Assembly (NCBI GenBank): GCA_963556145.1
Contig: OY744464.1
Span: 5,890,001-5,954,000 of the forward strand
Direction of reading: 5' to 3'
Length of the DNA stretch: 64,000 nucleotides
Origin: Hygrocybe punicea
Taxonomy: Eukaryota; Basidiomycota; Agaricomycetes; Agaricales; Hygrophoraceae
The notes beneath the pieces were generated by a model. The model worked only from the letters and a program-made list of their open reading frames with translations. It did not search any database and was not told the DNA's origin. Numbering within the stretch: position 1 is the stretch's first letter; each line of letters starts with the position of its first letter. The position numbers and the translations under genes were made by a program. Of the stretch, positions 15,668-52,693 are shown in pieces.

Positions 15668-15944
15668 GTAATTTGATGGATTTGTTTGGAATTCACAGGA
15701 ATTCAGATGGAATTGTCTGATGAGATTACTGGATTTGTCACGAATAGTAGTTAAACACTTGAACGCAGAGGAATTGCATCGAATTGTTTGGAATTGGTTG
15801 GAATTTGCATGGAATTGTCTTTTGAGCTCATACGACTCATCACAAATACTGCTGAGCCACTCGAGGACCAAGGAATTGCACGGAATTGTTTGGAATTGGT
15901 TGGAATTTGCACGCAATTGTCTTTTGAGCTCATATGACTCATCA
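15668..15944. repeat. 102-bp tandem repeat cut by a Helitron end
   Basis: GAATTGCA...CGGAATTGTTTGGAATTGG...CTCATATGACTCATCAC begins at 15771 and again at 15873; a degenerate unit lies upstream. The second unit ends exactly where the CTAG of Helitron copy A begins, so that Helitron landed inside the repeat. GAATTC-rich DNA at 15340-15660 precedes it. Confidence 0.8.
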
Positions 15945-18900
15945 CTAGTGGGGTGTGGGCCATTGCTTTGCATGGCAGGTTACTCGTCCCTTTTTCTTTT
16001 TAGCAATGAGAACAAATATTAAAATTGAGCATATATAAAAAGTACAGCATTATTACCATTACATGACAATAAATCAATATTTGAAAAGTCATCTATATCA
16101 CCTTCATTAATGCAAAATGATCGTGTTGACATACCATCATGAAACCATACCATCCTGTTGACGAATATGCATGCAGTAAAATGTATATTACCAAAGTACA
16201 CAATTCCTCTCAATGTGTAAGCAGTGGATATGTCATCAATTGACAAGTTTATAGCTTGGCTAATTATTAAATTCTCAATAGAGTCAACTGTAAACATGAT
16301 TAGAGGTGGAATTTTGTTAAATGCAATAAATTTAGTAATCTCTCCCCAACACAATTGACATTTGTGCCGTTGTCTATTAACTATGATTTGAGCAAGACAT
16401 GCTGAGATTGTTCCAGAAAATGAATATGAACAATGAAAGATGGCATCACATCTATCATTTTCCAGAATGGTTATGTTTTCACAATTCATACCTTTAAGAC
16501 AAGTTGAAGTCATTGGTTCATTTGCTTTCATTATATAATGGGCCAAATCACTTATGGCAATGCCAACTTGACCATAAGGAAATGTTTTGGGTTTATCTTG
16601 GTGCAATAAATGTCTGATTGTATTTCTAACTGTTTCTAAATCTGTTGTGTTATTCTTTGATCGTTTGAATCCTAAGCTCAAAATCTTTAATATTTCATTG
16701 ATGCTATTGAATCTTTTGTTCCAACTTGATGGATCTTCATTCCATATTGCTAGTAGTATTGTAAAGAGTGAATCGTAAGCACAGCTCCAATCTTGCGCAT
16801 CCCATATAAACCCTTTTGGTTCATTTAATTCAATAGTACTTGTTTTTTGTCTTTTTTTCACTATGAAAGATGAACTTACAACTTGTTGTAATTTTCGTTT
16901 TTTATTTTGCAATACATTGGCCGTTGAATTTTTATGAGTGACAGTGATTGGAACAGTTCCTTTTGCAGGAACAAAGTTGAGGTTTCTGAAATCTGCCTTT
17001 TGATTTTTGTTCATAGGTTTAATTAATTGCCATGCAGAGGGTTGTGCTGTGTATTGGTTTAGTTGCTCCGTGGCTTTCCATGCAATAGCATGATGAATGT
17101 CTTTTGGAACATATGACTTTCCTTTCCATTTTCTAAATTGATCAATAATAGAATTTCGCTGATCTCCCTTGACATGTTTTGGTAAGAGTCCTTGATATTT
17201 CAATTTGGTAATCTCATCAAGCAGTTCCAATTCTCTGAATTCTTGCCGGAGATATCCAGAAGCACCCCCAGTAATTACTTTAGGATCAAAGCCTTGCATG
17301 ATGATAGTTCCTGCTGCAGAAGCACTTCTTGATAAGCAAGTATAATAGGATTGGTGGTTTCTACAACTACTGAGGTCAACTACATTGTTAGGACGAGTAC
17401 GTCCTTGACATGCATAATCAGTCATTGCCAAATTAGGTAGTACCAACACTTGTTCTCTTGACAAAGATATCACATCATCATTGGGTAATGAGCACATGGT
17501 GGAAGTGACATGTTTTGTAATCGGCACCACATTTTCAGGAAGTCCTTCTATGTTAATTTTTTTTGGAGGATTCAATAATCTGACAAATAAAGTGTCCAAT
17601 ACAGTTTGTTGCTCAGGACCTATTGCACTCTGCCAACCCACAACCATGCCCTCTGCTCCTTTGGTAATGCAACACTCTGTCACATCATTGTTTCTCAGCA
17701 TCACTGGCATGCCTACACATAGGTCTAATCTTCCTGGTATATGATCAGAGGATGATGCATGTGGTTGGCTCCAAAGTAGTTTTTGAAGTGAAGGTTCCAA
17801 TAACTTTGTGTGTCGAATAGGATCCAAAATTGTTGACATGTGATGAGATTTCCTTTTGCTATTGGAACTAGTAGGATCATTCCATCTGTCTATAGAATAA
17901 AATGATGTTAATGGTCTTTTATTTTCAGCAGCAAAACGTTGAATACCAAGTTCATTGATTTTGTCTTTTTGTGCATTCAATGCAGTTATAACTGACACAT
18001 TCCTGAATTTCTTTTGGGCTAATTTTGGATCATTTGGACCTTTTCCTGCAACACGAGTACGAAGAAATGCAATATCTTTGGGAGTACATGCTTTGTATCT
18101 CATGTTTTCCAAAGCAAGCCTCAGTTGGACATCTGCTTCTGACTGATTGGTTTGTCTCATATTTTCACGTAATATAACAACTGTTGTTATTTGATGCCCA
18201 AGAGCTTTGCCTATAGCCGCTTCCTGATTTGGTATAGTTTGACTGGAATTGATTTGGACACCAACGGTTCCAGAGTATAAAGGAGCACCACTCATAGCTG
18301 GTGGAAGTTGGCCAAAATCTCCTGCAAATATCATATTAATGCCACCAAAGGGTTCATCATAAACGCCACGTGCTTTTGCACACTGAGCACTGATTTTATA
18401 CATATCTCTGCAAGATAACATTGACACCTCATCAATGAAAATGTAATCCACACCATCAAGATTGGCACGAACTTGTGCAAGGGAACGAGATCATCCTCCC
18501 TGATTAATTCCAAGAATGGAGTGATATGTAGATCCATTTACAAGGGCAGCAGCACCACCAGTTGGTGCAAGAACCACAAACCGATGATTTTCGTTGTGTT
18601 TACCAAAGAAACTAGTCAATGCTTTGATGACTTGTGATTTCCCTGTGCCTGCCATCCCACCAAGATACATGCGTAGCTTATCAGAACTGTTAATCAAGGT
18701 AGAGTGATTGGCAATGATATGAAATGCTCTCTTTTGGTCAGTGTTCAACTTGTAATCATTGATAGTTACATCAATAAGATGACGATCAGCTCTGTTTGCA
18801 GGAATAAACATATGGTTGATGTATGCTGCGTCCACTATCTTGACATTATTATATTCAAAATTTCCCAATTTATCTATGGTTGCTGTTTTTGTTGGTAAAT

Positions 18901-20309
18901 TTTTATTTCTGTCATCGATGATTTCCTTTTTCTTTGCAAGGACTGCAGTTCTCCACAATTTTGCTGATTGTACTACAGGTGGTTCTATAGGTATCAACGG
19001 TCCTATATCTGGGGTACCATCAATACAATCATCGAGCCACCCTGACCTTTTCAAAGTTCTTTCAGCTATCAGCATTTGATCTTTCCTTTTTTGTCCTTTT
19101 TGACCAAGTTTCAGGAGTATTTCCGTGTCATTATTGTCTTCATCAATATTGTTGTTGAAGTCGTCGCCATTAAATGCAAATTCAGCATTGTGCATGTCAT
19201 CCAGTTCATCAAGACCGTTTGAGGTCGCCCATGAATACCTTATATTTGCAGTATTATTCTTCTGACGTTTAGCAGAGAAATCATCTCTTGCATCCAAACA
19301 TTCATACCGCAGACCAAAGTATTTCATGATCTCTAGTTCTTTTTTAGAAAACTCGTGGTCTATAAAAGTATTATCCCATGTTTGTAATTTACTTTTGAGT
19401 TCTTTGCCACTTCTCCATGGCTTGAAAAATGTTAACATTGTACAACAATAATATTCTCGATCACCATGGTCAGCCCTTGGCAAAGTGTTCGGAATAAAAT
19501 TAGGAACTATGAAAGGATCATTCCCTTTCATTTTGGCATGGTGGGTAAGATATTGTGGATGATTGGAATGTAAAGTATAATCATTTTCAAATTTTGTCAA
19601 TTTATTAAGATCAACTTCATTTGTTTTATCAGCTATTTCTGTGCCTGCATGTCTATTCAAACCATCAGGTTTTGGAATTTCATCTATCTCCATGAGTATA
19701 TCATTATCAATGACATCAGACAAGTTGTCATCACTGGAGTCATCAACATTAGTAGGTTCAGTGAAAGAGTCAGAAAAATCATCACAGCCTAGATTGTCCA
19801 AAATATGGTTTTGCATGGGGTCTTTTCTGGCCCTTTTGCTTTTTGTTTTGGTGCATCTTTTATTTGGTTCCATAGTGGCAAGACGTATCCAGTCATACAG
19901 TGATACATTATCATACAAGGCTGGTCTGAACTATAATTATTTACTTTGGAAAGTCCAATGTATGCGCCATTATTCTTACCAATAACAACCTTTTGTGTAT
20001 TATTTTGGTCTTCACATATATTAGCAATTTCTTCATCAGACCATGCACTGGTAACCTCTTTAACATAAGATCTCCAAAAGAATGGCACGAATTTATGACT
20101 GGTGTAGTGATCAGGATTTCCAAGGACATATAATGAAGCCATTGGAGCACCAATTTCCATTTTGGAGGTGAGTGAATTGACTATTTGTGTAAACAGTTTT
20201 CTGACTTTGTCTTTTCTTTTCAGGTCACCACCAATCGTTTCGGAATTCTTATCAAAAATACTTTTTATCACTTCAAAAATGCTATAGGTCTTCAAGGAGA
20301 ATTTTGTAA
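15945..20309 (-). mobile_element. Helitron copy A/C, 3' half (fragment A)
   Basis: On the minus strand this is the 3' half of a large Helitron. It ends at 15945 with the inverted CTAG and the hairpin GCCATGC...GCAATGGC (15959-15976), flanked by T. Its internal break at 20309 is exactly complementary to the break of fragment C at 40214: joining them restores GATTATATTACAAAATTC, as seen uninterrupted in copies B and D. A and C are therefore one element split by the insertion of B. Confidence 0.92.
16019..20309 (-). pseudogene. RepHel C-terminal half of copy A/C (helicase and peptidase-like domain), broken
   Basis: Homologous to residues about 1150-2581 of the copy B RepHel. It starts at ITKFSLKTYSIF, just past the second tyrosine of the replicase motif. 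It contains Walker A (GMAGTGKS), the IDEVSMLS Walker B segment, a Cys box (DWSCAYDSLF) and a His box (IHFTACIF). A 1-base deletion near 19933 shifts the frame. A TGA at 18491-18493 interrupts the helicase between GINQGG and SRSLAQVR at the same place as in B and D. The sequence is closer to D than to B (for example EPNKRCTKTKSKRARKDPMQ). The N-terminal half lies at 40214-43667. Confidence 0.9.
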
Positions 20310-20550
20310 TTACGAGTCCCTATAAGGGAATCGTTCTATACGGTGGATTTTTCAACTCAGGGTCAGACTCTAATTTGCCAAGCCGTGGGAACAATTGTTG
20401 CAAACTGTGGGAACAATTTTGAAGCCCTGTGAATAAATTTGAAACCGTGTGACTGCTGACTTTGTAACTGTGAGAATTTGTTGTCTCAAATGAGCAAGAA
20501 CAATAAGGTCACCAGATCAAAGGTGCCAAGTTGGGAAAGTGTAGTCCACT
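20310..20550 (+). promoter_or_regulatory. Helitron 5' terminal region (copy B)
   Basis: Matches 8792-9030 with scattered substitutions. Both begin TTAYGAGTCCCTATAAGG, which contains the small inverted repeat CCCTATAAGGG. It is the likely 5' recognition end for the replicase. Confidence 0.8.
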
Positions 20551-21727
20551 GCTAAGTCGACTTCATGACAATAATCGTATTCTTTGTTGGTGTAATGTGC
20601 ATTATGACATATGGATGAGTTGAAAACCTGTCTGAACAGTACTGAGAGTTCTGTATTGTCCAACTAGTATCCCTGCTGTATTCTGAGGAATTGCCAGTGC
20701 AATATAGACTGAATGAACCAGATATGATATCTTTGTTTACAGATACATATAACAGCTATGTACATTGGAATCACAAGGAACAGGTTTAACACTGGTTTAT
20801 CCGGCGGGTTCATCATTTTTCGGCACAAAGTGTTTTGCAGATGTCCCTACCTGAATCCAGGGCATTGCAATTGCACAAATAATAGCAGAAATAAAAGTCT
20901 GGACAGTTGTTGGATGTGCATTATGTGCCATATTTGACATCCCATATTGAAGCAGAGAAAGTGCAAGCAGAGCTATCAACATTGAGAAACTATGGAGTTC
21001 ACACATTGGTACCCCAGATGCTGTTTCAATGTATTCATTGAATGGGCTCATAAGGGTGAGGTGTATAATTTGTTGATGTTTCATCAAAGGACACGAAAAT
21101 AGTACAATAAATGCAGTCAACTGCATAATGATTCGAGATCCAGACACAAGGACAAGGAACATAATTAGTTCAAGAGAAGCTCCAATCATGCCAGAACAAA
21201 ATAATATGATTGGAAAGCAATTATTAAATAGCAAAGCATCATATTTATGGCAGGATGGGAAGAAGTGAAGGTTGGGCCAAGATACAATCCAATGGTATCA
21301 ATGCAGGAACATAGCAACATAGGCTTCTCAGTACAGCAGTGAATTTCGTCATCAATTTAGATATAAAGGAGTAAATATGCTTGTTGTACCTGCAGATTTC
21401 GTCCAGTTAATATGACACGTCTTTGAACAAAAGGTTATGCATTACATATGCGAAGTAAAGGTAGTTTGATTGAATTTGTACAATGAATTGTAATTCAGTT
21501 TCATGGACCACAAACCGAACATATTGGACATGTTCGGTGTGTTCGGTCAATGTGTTCGGTCAATATGTTCAGGTTACTATTGTCATATGTGATCAGTACA
21601 CATTGAACATTGGATATAGTTAGCTATCCAGTGGTGATACAAAGAGAATATGCAAACATTAAATCTGGATTATAGGTAGATAATGGATTTTCAATAGCTC
21701 ATTCTCATCTTTTCAGCAAAAAGGCAC
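20551..21727. other. Helitron 5' subterminal region, no supported gene
   Basis: Contains a hydrophobic 145-codon minus-strand frame (20797-21234) without ATG start or homology support, a segment like the tandem units of the 8792 element (about 20861-20880), and a cluster of GTTCGGT words at 21516-21575 like the palindrome array near 28900. This region is absent from C and D. Confidence 0.55.
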
Positions 21728-22200
21728 ATTGAGAATTTTGGACTTGGTAGAATTTTGGGTGCTGTGTTTTGTATCTCATGAAATACTGCTTGGATCAAGA
21801 TGGTTATACAGTTTATGATTCTGGTTGTATTTCGAGCCTAGTGACAGACAAACATAGTACAGATGCAATGACGGCTCAAAGGACAAAAATAGAGAAGAAT
21901 ATGGTATATGTACTTCTAGGCCTTGAAAAGATGAACAACCTTCTCCCTCCAGTCTTCTTCATATGAGCTCTTTCAATATCATAATTTGACAATATCATTT
22001 TGGGCGTCAAAAAGTACTGGTCTACCTTTTATTTCATCAACAACTCACTATATCCTAAATATTGTTCAAATGTAATTACAGGCGTAGATAGTCCTCAAGA
22101 CATAGTACAACTTTCCCTGTATAACCATCGTAATCCAAATAGTATTTCATGAGATACAAAACACAGCACCCAAAATTCTACCAAGTCCAAATTTCTCAAT
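21728..22200. mobile_element. Foldback element (473 bp) with 60-bp terminal inverted repeats
   Basis: The left arm, ATTGAGAATTTTGGACTTGG and onward to CATGAAATACT (21728-21787), is repeated inverted at 22141-22200 with one difference. The interior has no gene. A second copy at 52130-52603 forms the centre of the C/D inverted duplication. Confidence 0.88.
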
Positions 22201-22286
22201 TGATTCAAAAAGGTGCAGTTGCTGCCATCAGATAGCAAAACAGCTGTAACATATCAACGGGTTGAGTACACATACAATATTATACA

Positions 22287-23542
22287 TTAGCATCGGTCTA
22301 TATTCATATTATAGAAGCGTCGCCTTGTTTCCACAACACCCTCTGCATCATTACCCTCTTCCACATACCCAACATGCCGTTTGATGGCTATTCTGGGCTG
22401 TGTAGTTGGTGTAGGCAAAGCTGTCTTATTGCAAATCGTAGTTGCTTCCTGAGAATATACATCAGTATTCGTTTAATTCTTGATGTATTGAAGTGTTACC
22501 TCTGTGAAGTCACTGTCTACCAGTGCCAATGACCGTAGATTCAGAATCATCTTGAATTTATCCTTCTTTACCGGAACTGCTGATATTGTAAACTGAACCT
22601 CCACTATATCACTGATTCTAAAGCAAGTTGGGTTTGTTGGAATGAAGCTAATAAATATTTCCATCAGTAGGGATGTGATCCCAATTCATCGTCACTCACC
22701 AATGTCGATTTCTATCAGACTTCAACTTGTAATAAAGTACGCAATTGTCCTGGCCAAGAAAGTAGCGGGAATTCGCAAGTGAGGTTAATATGCCTTTTGG
22801 ATCGATGGCATGCTCGAATGGAATGTGAGGGGAAGAGTTGTCGTGTCGGCGATCAGTGAAATATCGGGTTCCTATTGCGAGTGCCATGAAATCCATGTAT
22901 GTAGAAGGCGTAAAAGCTTGCATTGCTTTGTCAGGAAATTGACGAGCCAGTTTCTGGTGCAGAATCCGAAGGTTATCGATATAGGATAGAAAGCCCATTG
23001 TATCAAGGCCAGTTATGACTATGCTTTGACGTATGAAGGGCGTTCGGTGTTCTGGTTGACTATTGCAGTGATTCATCAGAATGGTATTCAAGGAATTGAT
23101 ACGAATTTAGCACATACCTGGTTGTTATGGGTGGAAGATCTTTCGCCACCAAAATCGCTTGCAAACTTAATACCAATTCTTGATGTTCGGATTCATCATT
23201 GGTTGGAAGTGTAAACTTCCAGCAATTTGGAGAGTCAACATGCACAATATTGACATTTTCAATCTGGCAATGCGGTCAATATGATATACCTTTTCAAATC
23301 CAATGACTTACGTTTGTGGCCTTCGCAAGCTGACTTTCATCATCGTCTAAGCGTGCAGATATGATTTCCTGCAGATGTTCAGCTGTCAATTTGGTGTCAA
23401 ATACTAGCCAGTATATATATGGTGGATATTGCTAACATGCACCCTTGAAGTTGTAATAGTTGTCCATCACGTACAAAGCAGTGGTGAGATGTATATTGCG
23501 TGGCACAATTTCGTCCACTTCATGGATTATATCTTCCGCCAT
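22287..23542 (-). CDS. Cargo gene 4, unknown function, multi-exon (copy B)
   Basis: Exons (minus strand): about 23542-23312, 23263-23118, 23059-22700, 22647-22500 and 22448-22287, with introns of 48, 58, 52 and 51 bp, all GT...AG. The last four exons sum to 816 nt in frame and end at TAA 22289-22287. Visible segments include NCWKFTLPTNDESEHQEL, GLDTMGFLSYIDNLR and FKMILNLRSLALVDSDF. The DIVEVQF...LRSLALVD part and the C-terminal KRHVGYVEEG...TRRRF resemble an uncharacterised Agaricomycete family (recall only). The first exon from ATG 23542 (MAEDIIHEVDE) has an in-frame TAG near 23451, so either this copy is broken there or the true start differs. Gene 3 diverges from it; the shared promoter holds a MITE. 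Confidence 0.6.
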
Positions 23543-24590
23543 CACCGATCATATCCATATTGGCTTTTGATGTCCATGTGATGATAGCTTTCAGGATCCG
23601 TTTTGCTTTTGTTTTTGTATTGCATTCTTCAATATTGAAGTTTGCGTCATTTTGCATAATACGGATCCTTTCCATGTCTTTCAAATGCACCACATAATGT
23701 TGGTTGTCAGCTGTCTGGTTTGGATATGGTATAGTCAAGCATGTACTCCAGCTTTTCCGCATTAATTTTGCATCACAGTATATGTGTGCACAGCATTAAA
23801 ATTAGCCCCTATCCATTATGCATCAATATCTGTTAGTATACCCCATGTTTCTTAATTTGGCATTATGCATTTTTGTTTTATGAATACCCCTTTTTGTTTA
23901 GTCTCCATTCCTAACTTTAATTGAATTTGTCAACAATTCATGAAATCTACCAGTATAAACTTGTGACGAATATCATGTGGACAGTCATCCATTTTTCATG
24001 CATACCTTTGCGCTTTGCATGGAGTACATGGCCCAAGAAGCCTCGTTTGGTATATGAGCATGTGCCAATGGTGGATCCTCTGATGTTATTGTTGAAGTTT
24101 TGGATTCACCGATTCATCTTAAATTCATAGCTTATTGTTTTTGAGTGATTTAAAGCGTGAGTGGAGATGACACAGGATGCATGGTAGTATACTGTATAAT
24201 GCAGTATGTTGAATTTATTGGACAAGTATACTAAATATTGTTATCATATTGTTGCACACAGTATTCAAAGAGTATTAAAAATGATGATTCAATATTTTGA
24301 AACAAAGTACATTACCAGTATTGAATGGCAATTTTACAATACTACTTCAATAATTTCAGTAAATGTCTTGTTATTCAAGCAGTATTCTAAAAGTGTCATT
24401 CAATACTAGTAATTTACTTGGTCTCAAAATATTGTATCATCATTTTGAATACTATTTGAATACTGTGCGCAACAATATGATAACAATATTCAGTATACTT
24501 GTCCAATAAATTCAACATACTTCATTACACAGTATGCTACCATGCACCCTGTGTGATATCCACTATTCCATCAACTTTTACCGCTCTCCA
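23543..24590. promoter_or_regulatory. Divergent promoter region of cargo genes 4 and 3
   Basis: About 1 kb between the two divergent starts with no gene of its own. A MITE (24160-24565) fills the gene 3 proximal part and ends 25 bp before the gene 3 ATG, so it may supply promoter or 5' leader sequence. Fragment C has lost this whole interval. Confidence 0.5.
24160..24565. mobile_element. MITE / foldback element (406 bp) with long inverted arms
   Basis: Left AGTGGAGATGACACAGGATG and right (inverted) AGTGGATATCACACAGGGTG begin arms of about 120-130 bp that include TTGAATTTATTGGACAAGTA and AACAATATGATAACAATATT. Related sequence occurs at 14705-15300. No coding capacity. I could not define a target duplication. 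Confidence 0.8.
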
Positions 24591-26638
24591 ATGCCTCCCA
24601 AGAAGTCCACCACCACGAAATCAAACTCGAAAGCAAAATCCAAGGCCACCATGTATGCATCCCTATTTTACTCGGTATAACTGAAGTTTCTATTGCATGC
24701 ACTAAAGACAGCCTTCTGCAACAATCGAGAAGCGGAAGAAGGTCATCAAGACTTGGGCTGATGATGATATGTATGTGTCATTGTTTTAATCGTTATCTAT
24801 TTTTGACCAATGGACAGTGTGGCTTTGTCCGATGCTAATGATGATGCCGTCAGTATTCAAAGCACTGGCAGTGTAATGGCACCGTCAACGCTCACAAGGT
24901 ATCTATAATCACATATCATTGTTATCCAATATGAGTTAACAAATATCAATATCCTCCTAGGCATTCCGTCAAGTTTCACAACGTTAAAGACGTGTTAGTG
25001 TTTCAATATCAAATATATCCACCATGATATCAATCTGTTACAGTGGAAAGAAACGTCAAATGTCATCTCCCAATGTCACCGACAATGACGACAATGTGTA
25101 AATATTTTTCATAGGTATTGTCTCATCATTGACAGGTTATCTATAGTAAAACGCCTTCCCCCGCCAAGAAATTGAAAGCTGCATCTAATCAATCACGAGA
25201 TGGTGAGGAAGAGGAGGAAGAGGAAGAGGAAGAGGATTACGGTTCTAAGTGAGTTGTTCGGTTATCATAGACATATCCATTTGTTCAAACAAATCGTTTG
25301 ACTGTTTAGGCATCGTCGCAAAGTAGCCTTGATGAAGAACCCTGATAAGCCAATTTCGTGTGTATTTTACGTGCCGATATGAATATTCTCATTCATTAAT
25401 TGTAACAGCGTTTCTAATACTCCATCCAAGAAGTCGAAGTCCATGAAGGCCATCATGCTCGATGATACCGACGATGATAAAGGCTCCAGTGGCGATGAAG
25501 GAGATCTGACCTATGCACTGACGCAGATCACCAGGTGTGTTGGATCTTATTACACCGTGGTGTTTGATGTAGATGTCGTGAATCTAGCTTACCATCTCCG
25601 AACGTTGATGAGTCCGATATTGGCACGAGGGATCCTCAACTTGTTGACACCTACCAAGACTGTGTCAATATCAAGTATGCAATTGCATTTATACCCTTGT
25701 CATTTACTCATAACCATTCAGGGCAGCAGCAATGGTATCCTGGTCCAGTGCAATTGGGAATGGCAACCCACAGTTCAGTGATATCATCACTGACATCTAC
25801 AAGATCAACAGAAAGTACGTTATTTGAACAGCAATTTGAGGTCAATTTGGTCGATTCATTGGATATAATATAGGTTATTGGTTTCTGCCATTACATTTGA
25901 TAGATCTGGGAGGTACTCTAATCTCTCTCGTGATAACCCTGCCCATATCTCCACTGGTGCTTTTGGTCACAACTTCTTTCATGCAGTCGGAGGTGGAATG
26001 CCGACGATCTTTACATCGGTCATCATAGTGGAGTCCTGCTTTCTCGATGAGCCCAAGATTGGTGGCAATACAAAGCCGGTCAAGGTTATACAGGGTGCAC
26101 TACTTCAAGGGGAATGGGAGCGATATGTCGGTGCTATTGGAATGGTGATTCGTGAGTCCGAATTTCGGGCCCAACTGTATAAGGACTATGTGTCCTTCTC
26201 AACGACCACAGCAAGTGGAATGGATACATCTCCCAGTTTGTGCATTAATCATTTTTAGTTGTAATTCCTAATCGATTTTCATAGAGGCATCGACATCCAA
26301 AAATGTACAACTTAGTCCATTCACTCGTCGACCCACTCCATCTTATCATAAGGCCGCTCTATCATTTTACGATATTGGTAAGCATCCGGTCGTCTAATAT
26401 AAATTGATATCTTAAGTATGTGTTGTCAGTGCCCATCTATGATGCATGCAAAGTCAAACCGGACTTCACGTCCACTCTCATATCGCTCCAGCAACTACCC
26501 ATCTTCCCACACAATATCCCTGCAGGATCCTGTGTCATTGTTGGACATACAATCAATACATTCAAGCATGTAGATGACATGATGAAGAGCATTTCACTCA
26601 ATGTGCAATGGGTCATGGTATTGGGAGTGCCGAAATGA
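24591..26638 (+). CDS. Cargo gene 3, 13 exons, Lys/acidic-rich protein of unknown function (copy B)
   Basis: From ATG 24591 (MPPKKSTTTKSNSKAKSKAT) I can join 13 exons with twelve introns near 50 bp. Phases agree from exon 2 on, and the frame reaches TGA at 26636-26638. The exon 1/2 acceptor is ambiguous. The later exons include 25874-26235, 26285-26377 and 26430-26638. The protein is about 470 residues. The N-terminal half is basic, nuclear-like (KSKAK, GKKRQ, SPAKKLK) with a run of nine Glu. The C-terminal half is a compact domain with FSDIITDIYKINRKLLVSA, FDRSGRYSNLSRDNPAHI and FPHNIPAGSCVIVGHT. I do not recognise the domain. The RSGRYSNLSR pattern is reminiscent of uncharacterised Agaricomycete proteins. 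No premature stop is seen in this copy. Confidence 0.75.
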
Positions 26639-26725
26639 TTGCTCCACTTAGCATCATTTATATTTGTATCTTATGTCTGTTTTGTGAAATAAACGCGAAC
26701 CGATCCATTGACTGTACAGATAATA

Positions 26726-28548
26726 TTACAAATATGAGTATGGACCTTTGATGTCAATCAACCATTTATAGAAAACCCCTGCAAATGTGTCTGCTAATGA
26801 GCCAATGGGTGCTTGAACGGATTTCGGACCTGACTTCATGTTCGACCAGAGGCTGCATGTGTGATAACGTTCCACCTCGTTCACGAAATAGGACACAGTA
26901 TCCGTTTTGGAATCCACAATGAGCGATATGTCCATACGGCAAAAAACACTCATCGATGGTTTTCCACCAACCATATTGGACTCTATCGCATAAAGCCCTT
27001 CGTAGGTCTTTTGGACAAAGTCGAAGAACTCGTTTCTGCCTTGCTCTCGAATAGAAATGGCACCCCTGTCCGGATTACACGCCACCGTCTTCAATACAGT
27101 CCCCTGCGTTTGAAATATTCTGACAAAGTTAAGACAATCATGCATATGATATGACAAGTGAAAATGAAGGGCACTCACCTTAACTCATCCAAGGTATAGA
27201 AACTTGAGACGATATCCCACTTCCAGGACTTGCTTTCCTTGTTGTACAGGGTGTGCACCGTATACACGACCTTTCCACCAACTAGAAACACACGCCATTC
27301 GCCCATCTTACTCAGTGGTTCGATGTACGTTTGCCCAAACCAACGTGAACCTGGAACCTCACAGTTATTGCGCATGTATTCCCAATTTCGCTTGGCGTCG
27401 CCAGGTAATAGGACGTGATGACCGGTGTCGCTGTGTGTCCGTTTCAAGACAATATTCGGTGGGAATTGGTCGCCATCGTTTAATAATTTTGCTTGAGGGC
27501 GTATCGTATGCGTTACATTCAAAGTGACATGAAGCAAGTTTTGATTTTGTATCCATTTTGAATGGACCGTGTTCATCTGCTTCGGAGGCGGCCAGATGTG
27601 TGCCGTTCGACAGAGTTCGTCCATGCCAGTCATGAAAATCGACACATTTTCCTGTGTCAATGCGTATTGGTTACCGCTGTCAAGACATCAGTATAATGCA
27701 GCGAAAACGGAGCAGAATTAATTAAAGCGATGTCAATCTTACATATATGACATTCCCATATCCACACCACCAAATACACAATCTGCCGATGCGAACTTTT
27801 GCCACGTATCGCCTTTGTCTTGATGGCGAAGTATTGCATGAAGGAACTCGGGCCAAAATATGTATTTGACATTGAAGCGCCGGGCTCCATCCTCATGATG
27901 TAGTCGCATTCCGATATAAACCTGTTTGTTGTGAAATACGTTTCAGTATCAACAATCCACAAATTAAACAATAGACATTACCCATTCTGGAATACATGCT
28001 GAATAGCGACTCTTGTATGACTTGATGATATGGACGTAACCATCAAGATGGGCAATGGTATCGAGTTCGATGTCGGATATGGTCGTGGTGACGAATGCAA
28101 GATCGTTAATGGCTGCGGCTTTGCTCGCGATATGAGTTGTTGGGTCAAGGATAAAAAGGATTTTGAAAACACGGCCGTCATTGTTGCTTAATGTGGTTAT
28201 ACGGCGTTCATTGTTGCTTACAGTGGTTGGCGGTTCCGTTTCACAGTCAGATGATGTTTCCATCTCAGAGTCGGATGATAGCCTTTTGCGTGGAATGAGA
28301 TCGAGTTCCGCGGCCGTCGCATTGCGGACACCCTGCGAATTTTCACGTATGTTGCGACCAAGACATACCGACTGCGGACAAATTCCAGATGAAACGCATT
28401 TGGGATGTTGGTGTGCGGATCCGACATGTCTTTGGCAGGAGTTGCCTTCCTTCTTCCACAAAAGACATTTCGTTTTTGGAGAGTCGCATTTTCGACCAGG
28501 GCAAATGTGCATGCAAAGTTCATAACCAAGTTCCTTCTTATATGGCAT
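26726..28548 (-). CDS. Cargo gene 2: Cys-rich + ATP-grasp-like protein, 545 aa, 4 exons (copy B)
   Basis: Exons 28548-27982, 27921-27743, 27676-27179 and 27119-26726 (introns 60, 66 and 59 bp, GT...AG) give exactly 546 codons with stop. Residues 12-62 hold eight Cys (12, 16, 21, 28, 38, 51, 57, 62) with His residues, a likely zinc-binding module. An acidic linker follows. Residues about 320-500 look like the catalytic part of an ATP-grasp fold: VLKR (Lys327), a HSDTGHH loop (330-336), GEWRVFLVGGK (374-384), RMD (476-478) and YFVNEVE (492-498), the last two in the positions of metal-binding Asp and Asn/Glu. If so it would ligate an acid to an amine or thiol using ATP; the substrate cannot be told. 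The assignment rests on motif pattern only. Gene 1 diverges from it across a palindrome array. Confidence 0.75.
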
Positions 28549-28794
28549 GTTTGTGGACCTAGGCAGGATTTCGGATGGGTGGGATGAGGAACAGACACAG
28601 ATATCATTAATACATCAATACCTTAATGATTGATTACTTTCAGGGTGGTTGATAGCGGGTGGTGACGATTCCACAAACCTTCTAATTATAAGACGTCGGA
28701 ATTATGTCACCTGACAAGAGTGGCAATGATAAAACAACGAACACGTGCCAAACACGTTGATCAGCAATGGAATCATTTAAATGTCTTGAAAGAG

Positions 28795-29010
28795 CAATAT
28801 CCACCGAACAGATCGGACGTGTTCGGTGTGTTCGGTGGAGATGTTCGGTGGATGTCAACCAACCATTATGAGGAGATATACTACACCGAACACATCGAAC
28901 ATGTTCGGTGTGTTCGGTGTAGTATATCTAGTCGTACATTGACATCCACCAAACATGTCCGGTGACCGAACACACCAAACAACATGTTTGTTGTAGTATA
29001 TCTAGTCCTT
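28795..29010. promoter_or_regulatory. Palindrome array (GAACATGTTC) in the gene 2/gene 1 promoter (copy B)
   Basis: GTTCGGTG and its complement CACCGAAC recur many times. Positions 28873-28928 form a 56-bp palindrome with 27 of 28 pairs matched, centred on GAACATGTTC. The whole interval 28549-29389 has no gene and separates divergent starts, so it is a good candidate for a dimeric activator or repressor site, or a cruciform-forming replication signal. Confidence 0.75.
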
Positions 29011-29389
29011 CTACATCCATCCAACAAGTCAGACTTGTGGTGCTTTTCCGTCAACGGACCAGTCCGTGAATATTCATCGAACGAATTAACTCGATTTATC
29101 GCCTTACCAACTGGAAAATATTCCATACACTGCACATGTCGGTTTTCTGCGTGCAATTACTAGCTTTGGACAACTTCTAAGCTCGAGCCACATCAAAAAC
29201 ATAAATAAATAGATCTGTTGTTTATGCATGCAAAGAAGCCGAACATGAGGTCGAACATGTGGCGATTGATCTGGTCACGTGGTCGTGACATCTGTATTCA
29301 TAGTCTGGAGCGTTGAGTAATAAATCTGCCCTTTTTTTTTGCCCTCAAATCGCCTCACACATCGACCAAAAACTTTTATTTCATCTACC

Positions 29390-31310
29390 ATGTCCTTGCC
29401 CGTCATCAAAACCTCGACTCCTGCCATCAATCCTGCAGCCTTCAAGTACTGGCCTGATGCACCGCCCAAAAAGCTGCAGGAGCTCCATCACATCTTCCAA
29501 ATCCAGTACATGGTCCCGCCCAAGATTCCGGCACCCAACAAGGAATCCGGCACTGTTCCCATATTTTCTTGTAATCTCTATGTACTGAAGACACACCCCG
29601 ACGATGCCACCGCCCGAGGTGAGTTATGGCGCGAAATCCCCGAACGATACGAGGAACCGCTCCGTCGCTTGATTTATCAAATGGATATGTACATCTACGC
29701 GACAGCAGCCATCGCATACAACAAGGCACCCAACTACTCGCCGGACTACGTCAAAAATGATAAGGAAGGGACCGATTCACTTCGGGATTACCTCAAGTAT
29801 ACCGACACCGTCATGGACGAAATTTGGGCAGAAGTCTTGGTGGTGAAACGGGCAAACGAGGTTACCCGTGACTGGCGAAGCAAGATCTTCGATGATTGGC
29901 TCCTGAAAGAATTTTATGTCGGGAAACATTCTCCATCGGCTTTGATTCAACATGGCGCTGTGAACACCGAGATCAAGCCCAAGGATCTAGGTAAGTATAT
30001 ATGTATTTATGGCCAAATGAATTCTCACGTCTGGCATCATAGATTGGGCAAAATACGACGAATCCGTGCCAGCATGGCACAGCGGAACCTTGGCAAATTG
30101 GTCATTCGGTGGGCTTCCAGATGCCACAAAGCTCGAGATCATCAGTCATGTTATTGCTTGGTGTAAAGGACATAGTGTCCTCGTCAATTCTGATGTGGCG
30201 GATGATGATGAAGGTGTGATCTAGAATTACATGTGTGATTGTGCTAATGATATAATACATTTGCACAGAGGAGCCGGTTCCCCAGGGCAAGGGGAAGGGA
30301 AAAGCCAAGTCAAAATCGGTCAAAAAACAGAAGGCATCTTCTGCTGGTTTGTACAAATTTTCAACCATAGTGGTGTATAGATCTATTGAATATTCAGGTG
30401 GCGCAGACAATTCGTCCGAGAAGGACAAAAAGAAGCCCAAGCCCAAGCCCAAGTCCAGTAAGTACTTTCATTGTCTGTGATTGTCATACATGCAAACCCT
30501 TCATCATGACAGAGCGCACAATCAAGTCCAAAGCCGAGGACAACGATGAGGGTGAGTTATTGAATTCCGAATATCAAAACGATGATCCAACACATTTATT
30601 CATGTATAGACGACATAAAGATGGAGGAGGACGTAGCCCCGGTAAAGAAGAAGCAGTCTAAGGCCCAAATGCATACGTTGCTCACCTTGTTATGATTAAT
30701 GCACTGACATCTCGCAGTCGCTGTTGAAATTGGGTTGTTGCGCACAACCCGGCAATCAGCATTAGAGAAATTGACAATGGAGATTAAGCCACCCATCGCC
30801 CCCGAGCCGGATGTTGTGGCACCGGAATCCGCGAAGTTGGACATTTTAGGACCAGAGTGGGCGGGGTTGTTGGATGTTGATAATGATATAACCATGGACA
30901 ACGATGATGGACCTCCCAAACCCAAAAAGGTGCTCCCAGCGATGGTCACAAGGACGGCGAGATGGCAAAGAGGAGGAAATTGGATGTTGCTTCGGAGCAA
31001 GCAGGCATTATTGCAGAGAAGCTCAATCTGGTGAAGCCACCGAAGAAGTCTCCGACTCCGGGTATGTGTTTCAATATCACATGGCTATATCTAATCCAAT
31101 TCTGATCTTATCAATGTCCTAGGATTCCGTCCCAATACGCGTGCATCGTCACGCCACCAGTCATCAACCCCTGCGGAGCCCAGCGCTTCATCGATGGACG
31201 TGGATTGGAACAACATCGTTCCACCTGAAATCCTACTCTCCATTACTCCAAGCCAAACGAGGCCTTCATCTCCCAAGCTGTCGACATCCAAACTTGATCC
31301 CGGGCCTTAA
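29390..31310 (+). CDS. Cargo gene 1, multi-exon, conserved N-terminal domain and charged tail (copy B)
   Basis: ATG 29390 follows CATCTACC. Exon 1 (29390-29990, 200 codons) reads MSLPVIKTSTPAINPAAFKY and includes LRRLIYQMDMYIYATAAIAY. An intron of about 52 bp is followed by DWAKYDESVPAWHSG...WSFGGLPDATK, then further small exons rich in Lys/Pro/Ser and acidic residues (KGKGKAKSKSVKKQK, KPKPKPKS, KSKAEDNDE). Up to about 30660 the phases agree. After that, a segment VEIGLLRTTRQSALEKLTME and a later one KDGEMAKRRKLDVASEQAG lie in different frames around the A-run near 30920, and the terminal exon GFRPNTRASSRHQSS...DPGP stops at 31310. A frameshift or an unrecognised intron must be involved, and it is the same in all three copies. 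Domain not recognised; the tail suggests a nuclear, nucleic-acid-associated protein. Confidence 0.6.
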
Positions 31311-32398
31311 TTTCGGAGGAGTAAGTCCTTCTTTTGTGGAGTATTCATTATATTTGACTAAAAAGACTGTATCCCAGTCGTTGATTTCTGGAAACTTGGT
31401 GACAATCTGTGCCCTCAAATGTCCTCCTCATACATCGCTACTATTAACATTTGTACAGTTTCTATATATGTATTTCTTTTTGCTCCGTTAAAAATGGCTT
31501 GTGTTACTGTCCTATGACCATAAGAATTGAGCATGATAGTGAGCATAGATACAGCGTAAGGCATCAATCTTGTTGACTGAAAATCTGTTTGTCTAAAATA
31601 TATCCTGGTGAATGCATTACTTTCAGTTCAGTCGTACAACCACCTACACACTCAACTTGAGAAGGACAACCTGAGATGACTCTCATTCGGGCTAACAAAA
31701 ATTCAAATTGAATATATGTAAGAAACCAGAATCGCGAACTTTATGGACCTATTAAATGAGGATACAATGATACAAGAGTAACAAAACCCCCTCTTGTAGT
31801 GGAAGATATAACTGTCACTCCAAGGGGAGCTATGACTCTTTGGTACCGGAATAATACAGTATACTTGTGTGGGAATGATACGTACAGCTCCATAAAAATG
31901 ACAATGTATTTCTGACAAGGATGAAGAACAATGATAATTTCCACGAATTACCAAGCAATTGTCAAATATGCACAGTTGTCAAACAGCCTGGTTGTTCAAC
32001 TTCAATACCTGTTTTGTCTGTTGAGCAAGCTAGAAATAAATATCACTGAGACTCTGAAGATTAAATCCACAAAATATCTTAAAAGGGGGTACCATTGTTC
32101 TTCTCAGTCGGTTTGATCAATGTCTTGTCAGCCAGACCCCTAATAAGATCGTAAGGCAGCTATTCATGATACAGATGCATTTTTGGCCTGTATCAAGGCA
32201 TGTCACAGGAACATAGAATGGAATAAAAAAAGTAAACACAGATTTCTAAAGATTCAGGCACACCTTATGGTGTTTTGGGAAAAGCTTACAAATAATATAA
32301 TGTCATATGATCAATCCCATTGTGTTAATTGTTATTCATGATCCGAACCACTTGACTAGTTAAATAGGCGGTGTTTCCTCTGACTGTCACAAATCCTC
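31311..32398. promoter_or_regulatory. Upstream region of RepHel, no gene
   Basis: About 1.1 kb, almost unchanged in the three copies (counterparts 43668-44758 and 55943-57033) up to about 100 bp past position 32000, then slightly more variable. Short frames inside are not supported. It should hold the RepHel promoter and the gene 1 terminator. Confidence 0.5.
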
Positions 32399-35300
32399 AT
32401 GAATCCCCACAACATCATCCGTGTCTGCATTGCATGTTTGACTTATCTATATTTCCTTGCAAATGCAACATTATTTCCACAACTATGCCAAGACAAACTT
32501 ATGTATATCTCTCCTGAACCAATTTCCTGTCCTGTGATATCGACCTTGACCCAAGAATTGGATGTTTTTCAAAGAAAACTCATAGAACATGAGTTGGCCC
32601 CAGATCAGGGCGATGCAACAATATTGATGCAAATAAATGCAACACTATATGTAAAGATCATTGGAATAACAAAAGAAACAAAAGATAAATTGACAGTCGA
32701 TCCATTATTCGTTTGGACTACATTTAAAAATAGCGCCTTCAAAATGCGAATACGTTCTATTCAATATGCCAGAACATATTTCTTACCTCCTAAATATCTC
32801 TTTGCTTTGTATTGTCTTCTCAAACCTATCACTGTCCAATGTCGTTGTAAAATGATCAAAGCATTGCTCATGCGATCGCTATTGAGACGACATGATTTCA
32901 AAGCATATTTATTTCATTGTATTACTAGTTCTCTATCACATGCAACGTTGCTGTGGACCACACTATGTTTCATAATACGGCATAGCCGTTCAAACATAAT
33001 TGTGTTCAATTTGAATTTATTCGGACACTTGTTTAAATCTTTATATATAAATTTCGTTCATAGATATGACTACATTGGTGGTGGTAAACGAATACCAACA
33101 TTCAAGTTTAGCTTTCTTCAATCTTTCATGCTCCCGTCTAATAATATCAACCATGATTCTGACATGTTATTTGGATACGTGGATCATGTTGATCAACAGG
33201 CGGCCAACATTGTATATGGAGATAGAAAAAAATATCTGTGTGTTAAAATGCCTTTGCATGAACTTCTGCCAAAGTTGACGGTGAAGGATATTGGTGAAAT
33301 AACAACAATACATGGTATATATTTGTCAAAGACATTACAAAGATTACATGGACAAGATCTATCTGTGGCATTAATGAGGCATAATTGTTCAGCTTGTGAT
33401 ACTCATGTTTCTATTTTTCTTGTGCATGATATTAAATCACATAAAGACCTGTGTAAACAGTGGTACAGAAGACAAAAAATGACAGAAACATATGAGTGCG
33501 GCAAAGAAGAAACTCAGGCTCAAATGAAAGAAGAATTGGACAAGTCAGATGAGCAATTATTTCCTCCTCCTCCTCCATCTATTGAATTGAAGGAAACCAT
33601 AATCAGCAACTGGTGCAGAGATACATCACCTGAATGTTTCCAAGAAAGTGGGTGTGCTGTATGTGGTCAATTGGTTGCATTGAAAAACATGTCTTTATTG
33701 TCAAAGACAAAGGTTAATCTGAAAATATTAACTAGAGACAATATGGGAATCACAAGATGTGAACGATATCATTGTTCTGATCCAATAGAGGATATCAAAG
33801 GTCCAGTGCTAGATGACACATGTAAATGGATATGCAAACCATGTGTGCTCAGTCTGAATAAAGGCCAAACTCCCAAATATGCTTTGGCAAATGGACTTTG
33901 GATGGGCAGAATTCCTGCACAACTTCAAAATCTAACATTTGCTGAACAACTTTTGATTGCCCGTGTTCGTCACAACAAATGTATTGTTCGTGTCTCATCT
34001 GGGATGCATAAAATGAAAGCAAATGCCATCATGTTTCAAAACCCAACACCAAAGATATATCAACGGTTGCCTCCAACAATTAAAGAACTTGATGAAGTGC
34101 TAGCGTTTATTTTCACTGGTCCTGCCAGACCAACTCCAGAAGACATGGAGCGAACGCCTTTATTGGTTCGCCGAAGGCAAGTTTCTGCAGCTTTAGAATG
34201 GCTGAAATTGAACCACATGGATTACTATGATTTAGATATCTCCTATGAAAATCTAGCACAATACCCAGATCATGGAATTCCTGTTGTGATTGCATATCGA
34301 CCAGCAGACACAAATAAGGAACCGGAAGCCACTAGTGCATTTGACAATGAAGAGGAAGATGGTGTGGAAGATGGGCCTTGTCCCTTTGTTGTTAGTGGAG
34401 TAACTGGTGAAAATCTAGATATTACAAGTCCAAAAGCATTAATAGCTAGAGCGACAAAGCACTTGATAGATGACCATGGTGGTGTTCTTGCCATCAGCCA
34501 TGCTAGAAATCCAGAATCGTTCTTTAATAATCCTCAGTTATATCCTATGATGTTTCCCTGCCTATTTCCATATGGCTTGGGTGGTATTAGCAGCATAAAC
34601 AATGATGTTTTAAGCATCAGTGATATGATGCACAAAAGACATCTTCTGATGTACCATGACAAAAGATTTCAAACTGATCCCTATTTTCCATTGATTGCAT
34701 TCAATCAAGAACAAATCAAGGACAGTACAACCGGAGGATATTTGTTGACTAATAAACATAATTTCAATGATATTGCAGATCGCCTGATGACTATCAATAC
34801 AGCTGTTTTGGATGACCTCTCTAAGAGATTATCTAGAGGTGATAGAGTCAAACCAGATACATCGGAAGAGAAAGCATGCTATAAACTCATTTCTGATCTG
34901 GATCACGTAGCTGGTCAGGTCAAAGGTTCAATTACTAACAAGAAATACATGCGAAATGAGATTTGGTCTCTGATATCCTATATTGGTGCTCCGACTTGGT
35001 TTATCACTTTTGCACCTGCAGACATCAATCACCCACTATGCTTATATTATGCTGACAACAAAGAAATGTTTTATCCTAAACTACGTCTACCCCAGGATTG
35101 TTACAAACTAATCGCAAATAATCCAGTTGCTGGAGCCCGCTTCTTTCACTTTACTACTGAAATGTTCATCAAACATATATTAGGAATGAATGAATCTCAC
35201 CCTGGCCTTTATGGAAACACATCAGGTTATTATGCGACGGTAGAGGAACAAGGACGTCTTACCTTGCATCTTCATATGCTGTTGTGGATAAAGGGATGCC

Positions 35301-38300
35301 TTACACCACAAGAAATATGTGACAAAATTATGGGTGAAAATTCTGACTTTCAGAAAAGATTAGTGCAATACTTGGAAAGTTTGTGTGTAGGACAATTCAT
35401 GACAGGTTCTAAAGATGAGGTATCACAGAAAATGGAACAGACAATGTCGAAACCTGAATATCAACCACCAACATGTGTCATGCCAGATCCACCATCATAT
35501 AATTGTTCCATGAATTGTCAATATCACGACAAAAGATCAACATGGTGGCAAAGGTTTCAAGATATTGTAGATGATCTTTTATTGCGATTAAATGTACATA
35601 ACAGGCATGACGGCAAAAAAAAGCCATATTGTCTTAATTCGAAAGGTGAATGTAAATGACGATTTCCCCGTGATATCTTTCAACAAACTTTTGTAGAACC
35701 TAACACTGGTGCTCTCAACCTCAAGCATGGTGAACCTTGGATGAACACAGTGACACCTGAAGTTACATATATGCTACAATGCAATTCTGATGTGACCAGC
35801 TTATTATCAGGTACTGCTATAAAGGCCATAGTTGCATACATAACAGATTATATTACAAAATTCTCCTTGAAGACCTATAGCATTTTTGAAGTGATAAAAA
35901 GTATTTTTGATAAGAATTCCGAAATGATTGGTGGCGACCTGAAAAGAAAAGACAAAGTCAGAAAACTGTTTACACAAATAGTCAATTCACTCACCTCCAA
36001 AATGGAAATCGGTGCTCCAATGGCTTCATTATATGTCCTTGGAAATCCTGATCACTACACCAGTCATAAATTCGTGCCATTCTTTTGGAGATCTTATGTT
36101 AAAGAGGTTATCAGTGCATGGTCTGATGAAGAAATTCCTAATATATGTGAAGACCAAAATAATGCACAAAAGGTTGTTATTGGTAAGAATAATGGCGCAT
36201 ACATTGGACTTTCCAAAGTAAATAATTATATGTTCAGACCCACCTTGTATGATAATGTATCACTGTATGACTGGATACGTCTTGCCACTATGGAACCAAA
36301 GAAAAGATGCACCAAAACAAAGACCAAAAGGGCCAGAAAAGAACCAGTGCAAAACCAAATTCTTGACAATCTAGGCTGTGATGATTTGTCTGACTCTTTC
36401 ACTGAACCTACTAATGTTGACTATTCCAGTGATGACAACTTGTCTGATGTCGTTGATAATGATATACTCATGGAGATAGATGAAATTCCAAAACCTGATG
36501 GTTTGAATAGACATGCAGGCACAGAAATAGCTGATAAAACAAATGAAGTTGATCTTAATAAATTGACAAAATTTGAAAATGATTATACTTTACATTCCAA
36601 TCATCCACAATATCTTACCCACCATGCCAAAATGAAAGGGAATGATCCTTTCATAGTTCCTAATTTTATTCCGAACACTTTGCCAAGGGCTGACCGTGGT
36701 GATCGAGAATATTATTGTTATACAATGTTAACATTTTTCAAGCCATGGAGAAGTGGCAAAGAACTCAAAAGTAAATTACAAACATGGGATAATACTTTTA
36801 TAGACCACGAGTTTTCTAAAAAAGAACTAGAGATCATGAAATACTTTGGTCTGCGGTATGAATGTTTGGATGCAAGAGATGATTTCTCTGCTAAACGTCA
36901 GAAGAATAATACTGCAAATATAAGGTATTCATGGGCGACCTCAAACGGTCTTGATGAACTGGATGACATGCACAATGCTGAATTTGCATTTAATGGCGAC
37001 GACTTCAACAACAATATTGATGAAGACAATAATGACACGGAAATACTCCTGAAACTTGGTCAAAAAGGACAAAAAAGGAAAGATCAAATGCTGATAGCTG
37101 AAAGAACTTTGAAAAGGTCAGGGTGGCTCGATGATTGTATTGATGGTACCCCAGATATAGGACCGTTGATACCTATAGAACCACCTGTAGTACAATCAGC
37201 AAAATTGTGGAGAACTGCAGTCCTTGCAAAGAAAAAGGAAATCATCGATGACAGAAATAAAAATTTACCAACAAAAACAGCAACCATAGATAAATTGGGA
37301 AATTTTGAATATAATAATGTCAAGATAGTGGACGCAGCATACATCAACCATATGTTTATTCCTGCAAACAGAGCTGATCGTCATCTTATTGATGTAACTA
37401 TCAATGATTACAAGTTGAACACTGACCAAAAGAGAGCATTTCATATCATTGCCAATCACTCTACCTTGATTAACAGTTCTGATAAGCTACGCATGTATCT
37501 TGGTGGGATGGCAGGCACAGGGAAATCACAAGTCATCAAAGCATTGACTAGTTTCTTTGGTAAACACAACGAAAATCATCGGTTTGTGGTTCTTGCACCA
37601 ACTGGTGGTGCTGCTGCCCTTGTAAATGGATCTACATATCACTCCATTCTTGGAATTAATCAGGGAGGATGATCTCGTTCCCTTGCACAAGTTCGTGCCA
37701 ATCTTGATGGTGTGGATTACATTTTCATTGATGAGGTGTCAATGTTATCTTGCAGAGATATGTATAAAATCAGTGCTCAGTGTGCAAAAGCACGTGGCGT
37801 TTATGATGAACCCTTTGGTGGCATTAATATGATATTTGCAGGAGATTTTGGCCAACTTCCACCAGCTATGAGTGGTGCTCCTTTATACTCTGGAACCGTT
37901 GGTGTCCAAATCAATTCCAGTCAAACTATACCAAATCAGGAAGCGGCTATAGGCAAAGCTCTTGGGCATCAAATAACAACAGTTGTTATATTACGTGAAA
38001 ATATGAGACAAACCAATCAGTCAGAAGCAGATGTCCAACTGAGGCTTGCTTTGGAAAACATGAGATACAAAGCATGTACTCCCAAAGATATTGCATTTCT
38101 TCGTACTCGTGTTGCAGGAAAAGGTCCAAATGATCCAAAATTAGCCCAAAAGAAATTCAGGAATGTGTCAGTTATAACTGCATTGAATGCACAAAAAGAC
38201 AAAATCAATGAACTTGGTATTCAACGTTTTGCTGCTGAAAATAGGAGACCATTAACATCATTCTATTCCATAGACAGATGGAATGATCCTACTAGTTCCA

Positions 38301-40144: not shown

Positions 40145-40167
40145 TATGTGTTCTCTTGCTAAAAGAA

Positions 40168-40213
40168 GGGACGAGTAACATGCCATGCAAAGCAATGGCC
40201 CACACCCCACTAG
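40168..40213 (+). other. Helitron 3' terminus: hairpin and CTAG (copy B)
   Basis: GGGACGAGTAAC, hairpin GCCATGC...GCAATGGC (40182-40199), CCACACCCCA, then CTAG and a flanking T. Matches 11919-11964 and the inverted end at 15945-15990. Confidence 0.92.
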
Positions 40214-43200: not shown

Positions 43201-43667
43201 AATGCCTTGATCATTTTACAACGACATTGGACAGTGATAGGTTTGAGAAGACAATACAAAGCAAAGAGATATTTAGGAGGTAAGAAATATGTTCTGGCAT
43301 ATTGAATAAAACGTAATCGCATTTTGAACGCACTATTTTTAAATGTAGTCCAAACGAATAATGGATCGACTGTCAATTTATCTTTTGTTTCTTTTGTTAT
43401 TCCAATGAACTTTACATATTGTGTTGCATTTATTTGCATCAATATTGTTGTATCGCCCTGATCTGGGGCAAACTCATGTTCTATGAGTTTTCTTTGAGAA
43501 ACACCCAATTCTTGGGTCAAGGTCAATATCAAAGGCAAGGAAATTGGTTCAGGAGAGATATACATAAGTTGATTTTGGCATAGTTGTGGAAATAATGTTG
43601 CATTTGCAAGGAAATGTAGATAAATCAAACCTGCAATGCAGACACGGATGATGTTGTGGGGATTCAT
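40214..43667 (-). pseudogene. RepHel N-terminal half of copy A/C, broken by stops and by Helitron B
   Basis: In frame from ATG 43667 down to AYITDY at 40214, where copy B starts. Interrupted by TGA at 43178-43176 (CGA in B), TAA at 42146-42144 (CAA in B) and two adjacent TGAs from 40409 down (the second is CGA in B). All are C-to-T changes with no frameshift in this half. HUH and DUF6570-like motifs are preserved between stops. D shares the first three stops. Confidence 0.92.
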
Positions 43668-49395: not shown

Positions 49396-49483
49396 TATTA
49401 TCTGTACAGTCAATGGAACGGTTCGCTTTTATTCACAAGACATATGTAAGATACAAATATAAATGATGCTAAGTGTGGAGCAA

Positions 49484-52039: not shown

Positions 52040-52129
52040 TGTATAATATTGTATGTACTCAAACTGTTGATATGTTACAGCTGTTTTGCTACTAGTATCT
52101 GATGGCAGCAACTGCACTGTTTTGAATCA

Positions 52130-52603: not shown

Positions 52604-52693
52604 TGATTCAAAACAGTGCAGTTGCTGCCATCAGATACTAGTAGCAAAACAGCTGTAACATATCAACAGTTTGAGTACATACAATATTATACA

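Follow-up and report, generated by a model that had tools for sequence, protein, structure and literature searches.

A Helitron of Hygrocybe punicea carries four genes in a fixed order beside RepHel, including those for a predicted single-stranded DNA-binding protein and a predicted ATP-grasp ligase

A 64,000-nucleotide (nt) stretch of the Hygrocybe punicea genome (assembly GCA_963556145.1, contig OY744464.1, positions 5,890,001 to 5,954,000; hereafter the window) contains several copies of a large Helitron, and in the copy called B the RepHel gene is preceded by four further genes. The locus raises the question of whether these genes are stable parts of the Helitron family, as a first-pass annotation of the window had proposed, and what they might do for the element. 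They are arranged in the order gene 4 (−), gene 3 (+), gene 2 (−), gene 1 (+) and RepHel (+), with genes 4/3 and 2/1 forming divergent pairs. The proposal of two such pairs of intron-containing genes agrees with the coordinates, with 22287 as the end of gene 4 and 31310 as that of gene 1, and the introns measure 39 to 66 nt. We consider it reasonably probable that the element represents an autonomous Helitron, about 19.5 kb long, with four genes of its own beside RepHel, a judgment that covers the explanation as a whole, including the mechanism outlined below.

20310 to 40214, + strand: Helitron copy B; its ends are common to copies in other flanks, and an empty site is known for the C3 copy.
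22287 to 23542, − strand: gene 4; six exons, 335 amino acids (aa), start codon provisional; predicted T7 gp2.5/giant-virus-type single-stranded DNA (ssDNA)-binding protein.
24591 to 26638, + strand: gene 3; 13 exons that splice into an open frame of 470 aa; N-terminal part basic.
26726 to 28548, − strand: gene 2; four exons, 545 aa, Cys-rich N-terminal part and predicted RimK-type ATP-grasp domain.
29390 to 31310, + strand: gene 1; first ~330 aa firm, 3′ part provisional.
32399 to 40144, + strand: RepHel; two in-frame stops common to the window copies, intact copies elsewhere.

The fixed order is directly observed in many copies. The organism's own genome was searched with one exon of each gene, and the best 150 places were kept of 241, 227, 293 and 351 candidates for genes 1, 2, 3 and 4, respectively, along with the best 107 of 774 first-look candidates for RepHel. 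Because the limits on partner distance were wide (about 0.4 to 2.2 times the copy B distance) and each list ends at its best places, the counts are lower bounds for the family and no proof of intactness. Around the best 150 gene-2 places, a partner lies in the expected layout in 449 of 600 look-ups (150 places × 4 partners), versus 4 of 600 in a mirror-image control. All four partners are present in order and orientation at 61 of these places (58/124 at >80% identity and 3/26 at 74 to 77%), at least one is present at 144, and six places have none. The order is not restricted to this locus, and the reading frames elsewhere are open rather than random.

The same order holds for cargo of a second, diverged type. 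At the 26 diverged gene-2 places, partner identities are 79 to 80% for gene 3, 66 to 70% for gene 4, and 89 to 92% for gene 1, and RepHel is at 97 to 98% as elsewhere; listed partners accompany 17/26 (gene 3), 17/26 (gene 4), 22/26 (gene 1) and 11/26 (RepHel) of them. Diverged-type gene 3 and/or gene 4 also accompanies 21 of the 124 close gene-2 places. This mixing of close and diverged partners indicates that segments of the block were swapped between elements without loss of the order. Rows free of stops account for 25 of the 26 diverged gene-2 places and 41 of 44 gene-4 places at 65 to 70% identity. The recurrence of one order at many places, diverged cargo included, and the purifying selection on gene 2 described below bear out the view that the cargo genes are stable parts of the Helitron family.

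A common order could also arise from a single local duplication in the window, where two further copies follow copy B.

40211 to 52750, − strand: copy C; lies inverted, head to tail with B, and carries deletions; approximate outer limit.
52520 to 64000, + strand: copy D; cut by the window end and continuing past it, with deletions in genes 4, 3 and 2.

The annotation's statement that B and C share the order, and D in part, is correct in the following sense. Copy C matches B across all four genes and the first part of RepHel, and is without the stretch holding the first exons of genes 3 and 4. Copy D retains gene 1 and RepHel, and of the other genes just remnants of 4 and 2. Over 6846 nt, C and D are almost the same sequence in inverted orientation (99.87% identity), which is what a local artefact would predict and which means that they are not independent support within the window. 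Independence comes instead from five further copies in other flanks and from the genome-wide lists; these refute the local duplication, whose probability we regard as practically nil. The inverted C/D arms (40211–47064 and 53637–60490, 6.85 kb each, 6.6 kb apart) look as if an inverted duplication or a gene conversion had taken place very recently.

The borders of the element are likewise observed directly. Copy B is one Helitron from terminus to terminus; five more copies, at other places in the 92-Mb genome, can be aligned to it with about 97 to 99% identity, and the sequences flanking B and these copies differ right at the element ends. Three outside copies measure 19527, 19529 and 19530 nt end to end. 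In the C3 copy, a part of RepHel occurs twice inside one element (L039; C3:5158891 and C3:5162954), which brings the length to 23653 nt, and the C1 copy was excluded from the length figures since its left end lies in a run of N. Helitrons insert without target duplication and have a 3′ CTRR end with a hairpin just upstream. The 3′ end of the present element is CTAG. The host site of the C3 copy is a repeat, of which 13 unoccupied copies match the cross-site pattern with one or two mismatches. The empty site holds a single T and the filled site a T on either side of the element, so a 1-nt target duplication is possible, and the first or last T within the given borders of copy B may be the host's.

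20310 to 20334, + strand: 5′ terminus with a hairpin (20312–20334); the first 12 nt form one arm of an asymmetric terminal inverted repeat.
40167 to 40178, + strand: 3′ arm of this repeat, matching 20310–20321 at 10 of 12 positions.
40182 to 40199, + strand: 3′ hairpin of the centroid structure, ending 10 nt before the terminal CTAG.

When folded as DNA, the 5′ hairpin has a z of −3.22, with 0 of 200 shuffles equally stable, and the 5′ 24-mer occurs at 341 genome places with at most two mismatches, versus none for a reversed control. The 3′ arm is inverted and lies about 35 nt inside the element, and the 10/12 match was reached in 11 of 5000 shuffles of the element's final 80 nt. The full 69-nt 3′ stretch does not exceed its shuffles in stability (z 0.14), though its centroid contains the hairpin. 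Asymmetric terminal inverted repeats are a defining trait of Helitron2/Helentron elements (PMC5148889, excerpt), and copy B possesses them. Directly abutting its 5′ end is fragment A (15944–20310, −), which consists of another copy's 3′ part and ends in a proper 3′ terminus.

RepHel combines the Rep (HUH) and PIF1-type helicase parts that mark a Helitron, with Pfam matches to PF14214 (Helitron_like_N; 114.3 bits, cut-off 28.9), PF05970 (PIF1; 30.5 bits, cut-off 25.9) and DUF6570 (148.5 bits). Its translation includes an HLH motif, which we take to be that of Rep (HUH). Recoding was considered for the two in-frame stops and rejected: the first place is a sense codon in 6 of 6 matching stretches of the five other copies, and the second in 5 of 5. 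The match is stop-free within an open frame of at least 2591 aa at 33 of the best 107 RepHel places. Thus, the window copies have decayed, and apparently intact copies exist elsewhere. An apurinic/apyrimidinic endonuclease domain, a Helentron trait, is absent from the Pfam matches at E ≤ 1 in the first and last thirds of RepHel (the scan covered the gene outside 35660–37672). In the C-terminal part (38900–40144), a WDxxxxSCAYDSLF-like stretch without a Pfam match is reminiscent of a cysteine peptidase; other Helitrons are reported to have OTU- or tegument-like domains.

Gene 2 is clearly under purifying selection. The ratio of nonsynonymous to synonymous rates (dN/dS) is 0.19 for B/C (95 changes) and 0.16 for C/L040 (84 changes); among shuffles preserving base and CpG context, 0 of 5000 had as few nonsynonymous changes, and two closer pairs gave P values of 0.0012 and 0.0016. 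All 7 copies examined have its three introns (60, 66 and 59 nt) at identical positions and encode 545 aa without a stop. In the B/C comparison, dS is 0.17, about four times the intron divergence of 0.043.

The protein is predicted from its sequence to be an ATP-grasp ligase. Among three homologues, a Boletus reticuloceps protein carries the UniRef name “ATP-grasp fold RimK-type” and exceeds the Pfam RimK cut-off (22.8 bits versus 21), and the window protein (GSH-S_ATP, E 0.033) and the two other homologues (P0001 and P0002) match RimK or GSH-S_ATP below the cut-offs. Two lysines (K289 and K327), the strand-4 Asp (D478) and the ExR of peptide ligases (E375xR377) are invariant in all four proteins, as assigned by eye against the template in PMC4431377 (excerpt).

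Gene 4 (exons 23542–23443, 23403–23312, 23263–23118, 23059–22700, 22647–22500 and 22448–22287; introns of 39, 48, 58, 52 and 51 nt) models as a T7 gp2.5/giant-virus-type ssDNA-binding protein (SSB). The predicted fold of its homologue, found with a hand-spliced query about 10 residues short, is an OB-fold in which a long helix directly follows strand 2, the hallmark of T7-type SSBs. These SSBs also have an acidic tail, and in the gene 4 proteins the C-terminal parts contain runs of acidic residues with basic ones after them. Plant Helitrons carry RPA-like genes (PMC4683698, excerpt).

Several results weigh against these assignments and the roles that they imply. In gene 2, the ExN at the end of strand 5 is replaced by NExE (N495-E-x-E498), and structure prediction with three sequences gave a mean pLDDT of 33.5 and no usable fold. 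For gene 4, the structure model is that of a homologue at 30% identity and not of the window protein; its Foldseek matches in the PDB have low TM-scores (0.23–0.36 by query), and a single one reaches E ≤ 0.001. Sequence searches with gene 4 do not support an SSB identity: Pfam, PHROGs, NCBIfam and PDB sequences returned weak, scattered matches, with the best PHROG (E 0.0034) being of function not known. The chief result against a needed gene 4 is its missing constraint. Close copies show no synonymous excess (L041/B, 4 synonymous and 16 nonsynonymous changes versus 5.9 and 13.5 expected). L027/B has 5 and 16 changes and two further pairs 3 and 4 each, with no constraint visible at this depth, and dN/dS for one exon ranges from 0.28 (B/C) to 3.18 (B/L041, 12 changes). 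The frames kept open in the diverged type point the opposite way.

This pattern in gene 4 is what would be expected if the four genes were passenger cargo, captured once, without a role in transposition and multiplied merely with the element. Helitrons are known to capture genes (PMC6431247, excerpt), and copies with broken or missing cargo genes, such as D, do occur. Set against a passenger origin are the purifying selection on gene 2, frames that remain open at 65 to 77% identity, the order fixed in two cargo types, and the presence of two genes whose classes suit strand copying or protein modification; we therefore judge it unlikely. That gene 4 diverges fastest would also suit a counter-defence module, in which the gene 2 product alters a silencing factor of the host and the products of genes 1, 3 and 4 protect the element DNA, along the lines proposed for TET/JBP dioxygenases in fungal transposons. 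Other fungal transposons, Helitrons included, carry a gene read in this way (PMC12730594, excerpt), and a part in biological conflicts has been assigned to ATP-grasp families (PMC4431377, excerpt). Gene 4, however, resembles a replication SSB, and the searches made matched no known defence target or counter-defence family, leaving this module improbable in our estimation.

Profile searches and structure prediction, which the first-pass annotation had called for, provided a class for gene 4 (from the model) and gene 2 (from RimK in the Boletus homologue) and none for genes 1 and 3, which have basic stretches and no assignable fold. Gene 3 has twelve introns of 47 to 62 nt, a single homologue (44% identity over 31% of the query) and, in one exon compared between B and C, 5 synonymous and 2 nonsynonymous changes. 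Its C-terminal pattern resembles that of gene 4, and a second SSB was considered and rejected (profile comparison probability 0.6%). For gene 1, introns of 51 to 61 nt were placed in the window copies; in the 3′ part there are two alternatives for intron 6, neither of which yields a full frame, and B, C and D carry an indel missing from the five other copies. The dN/dS of gene 1 exon 1 is 0.25 to 0.39 in four comparisons and 0.85 in one (8 changes), with P values of 0.019, 0.081 and 0.103. No relatives of genes 1 to 4 were confirmed in IMG/VR viral contigs. The introns fit the uptake of the cargo as DNA that the annotation had envisaged. Its “host-interaction or regulatory” functions, in contrast, are not what the assignable genes look like: an SSB-like gene 4 and a predicted ATP-grasp gene 2 point to helpers of transposition.

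Other features of the element and window are as follows.

24171 to 24553, no strand: insert of 383 nt in copy B, foreign to the element, inside a palindromic stretch (24160–24564).

The insert is present in copy B alone and missing from the five other copies; the palindrome (~400 nt, 87% between arms) resembles a miniature inverted-repeat transposable element. Between the 5′ end and gene 4, a 166-codon open frame (20797–21297, −) without a Pfam match is possibly a fifth gene. The intergenic region between divergent genes 2 and 1 holds direct and inverted repeats (28820–29032) found in several copies. At 940–1687, an array of a 44-nt unit lies within long open frames in a GC-richer region.

An SSB-like gene together with a peptide-ligase-like gene suggests that helpers for its copying are supplied by the element itself. 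It is established that RepHel nicks and unwinds its element and that rolling-circle transposition produces single strands. We infer every functional step of the following scheme for transposition, which we consider the likeliest. After RepHel has nicked and unwound the element, the gene 4 protein would coat the displaced single strand, taking the role of RPA-like proteins in plant Helitrons with a phage T7/giant-virus SSB fold. The gene 2 ligase would probably attach amino acids or a peptide to a protein partner, which could be RepHel, the SSB or a host factor, and the products of genes 1 and 3 may act alongside both proteins in the nucleus. Tentatively, a fungal Helitron lineage may have taken up a giant-virus-type ssDNA-binding protein and a peptide ligase and kept them with two more proteins as an exchangeable four-gene replication module, making its copying partly virus-like.

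Known systems resemble this element in part. Fungal Helitrons range in size from 6 to 7 up to 14 kb, and uptake of full-length genes by Helitrons is exceptionally rare, according to an excerpted review (PMC6431247). The HELPO1 Helitrons of Pleurotus ostreatus, also an Agaricomycete, have one to four extra genes of unknown function, with capB relatives beside RepHel in other basidiomycetes; their cap genes lie downstream of RepHel, whereas the four genes here lie upstream, and no SSB or ATP-grasp is named for HELPO1 in the excerpted text (PMC4289320). It could be that capB is one of genes 1 to 4. FoHeli, a Helitron2-like element of Fusarium oxysporum, shares the asymmetric terminal inverted repeats and 5′ hairpin but is about 5 to 11 kb long with at most one extra open reading frame, and its authors found no RPA-like genes (PMC5148889, excerpt). 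Plant Helitrons with RPA-like proteins (Mothra) likewise have a resident ssDNA-binding protein gene (a predicted one here), although the fold predicted here is of the T7 gp2.5/giant-virus type (PMC4683698, excerpt). Gene 4 shares with T7-type SSBs (gp2.5, Enc34 ORF6/DUF2815 and African swine fever virus CP312R) the homologue's fold and long helix after strand 2 (PMC5686142, excerpt); it differs in residing in a fungal transposon, in its ~7 to 12% identity over aligned parts and in a C-terminal tail that is not simply acidic. Gene 2 has the conserved lysines, strand-4 Asp and ExR of RimK-like peptide-forming ligases (PMC4431377, excerpt) but differs in its NExE for ExN, its Cys-rich N-terminal part and the four members seen. 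TET/JBP-carrying fungal Helitrons also have a resident enzyme gene; the enzyme is a different one, and a four-gene block is not mentioned in the excerpted text (PMC12730594). No open-licence paper found pairs a Helitron with ATP-grasp or gp2.5, in a search whose scope lay mostly outside subscription papers.

The extra genes of Helitrons are mostly read as captured fragments. Here, intron-bearing genes stand in one order in many copies, and one is clearly under selection. If the proposed roles are true, the element would represent a second, unrelated answer, drawn from a phage/giant-virus SSB fold, to the need met by RPA-like genes in plant Helitrons, and the question of which helpers Helitrons need would become directly testable.

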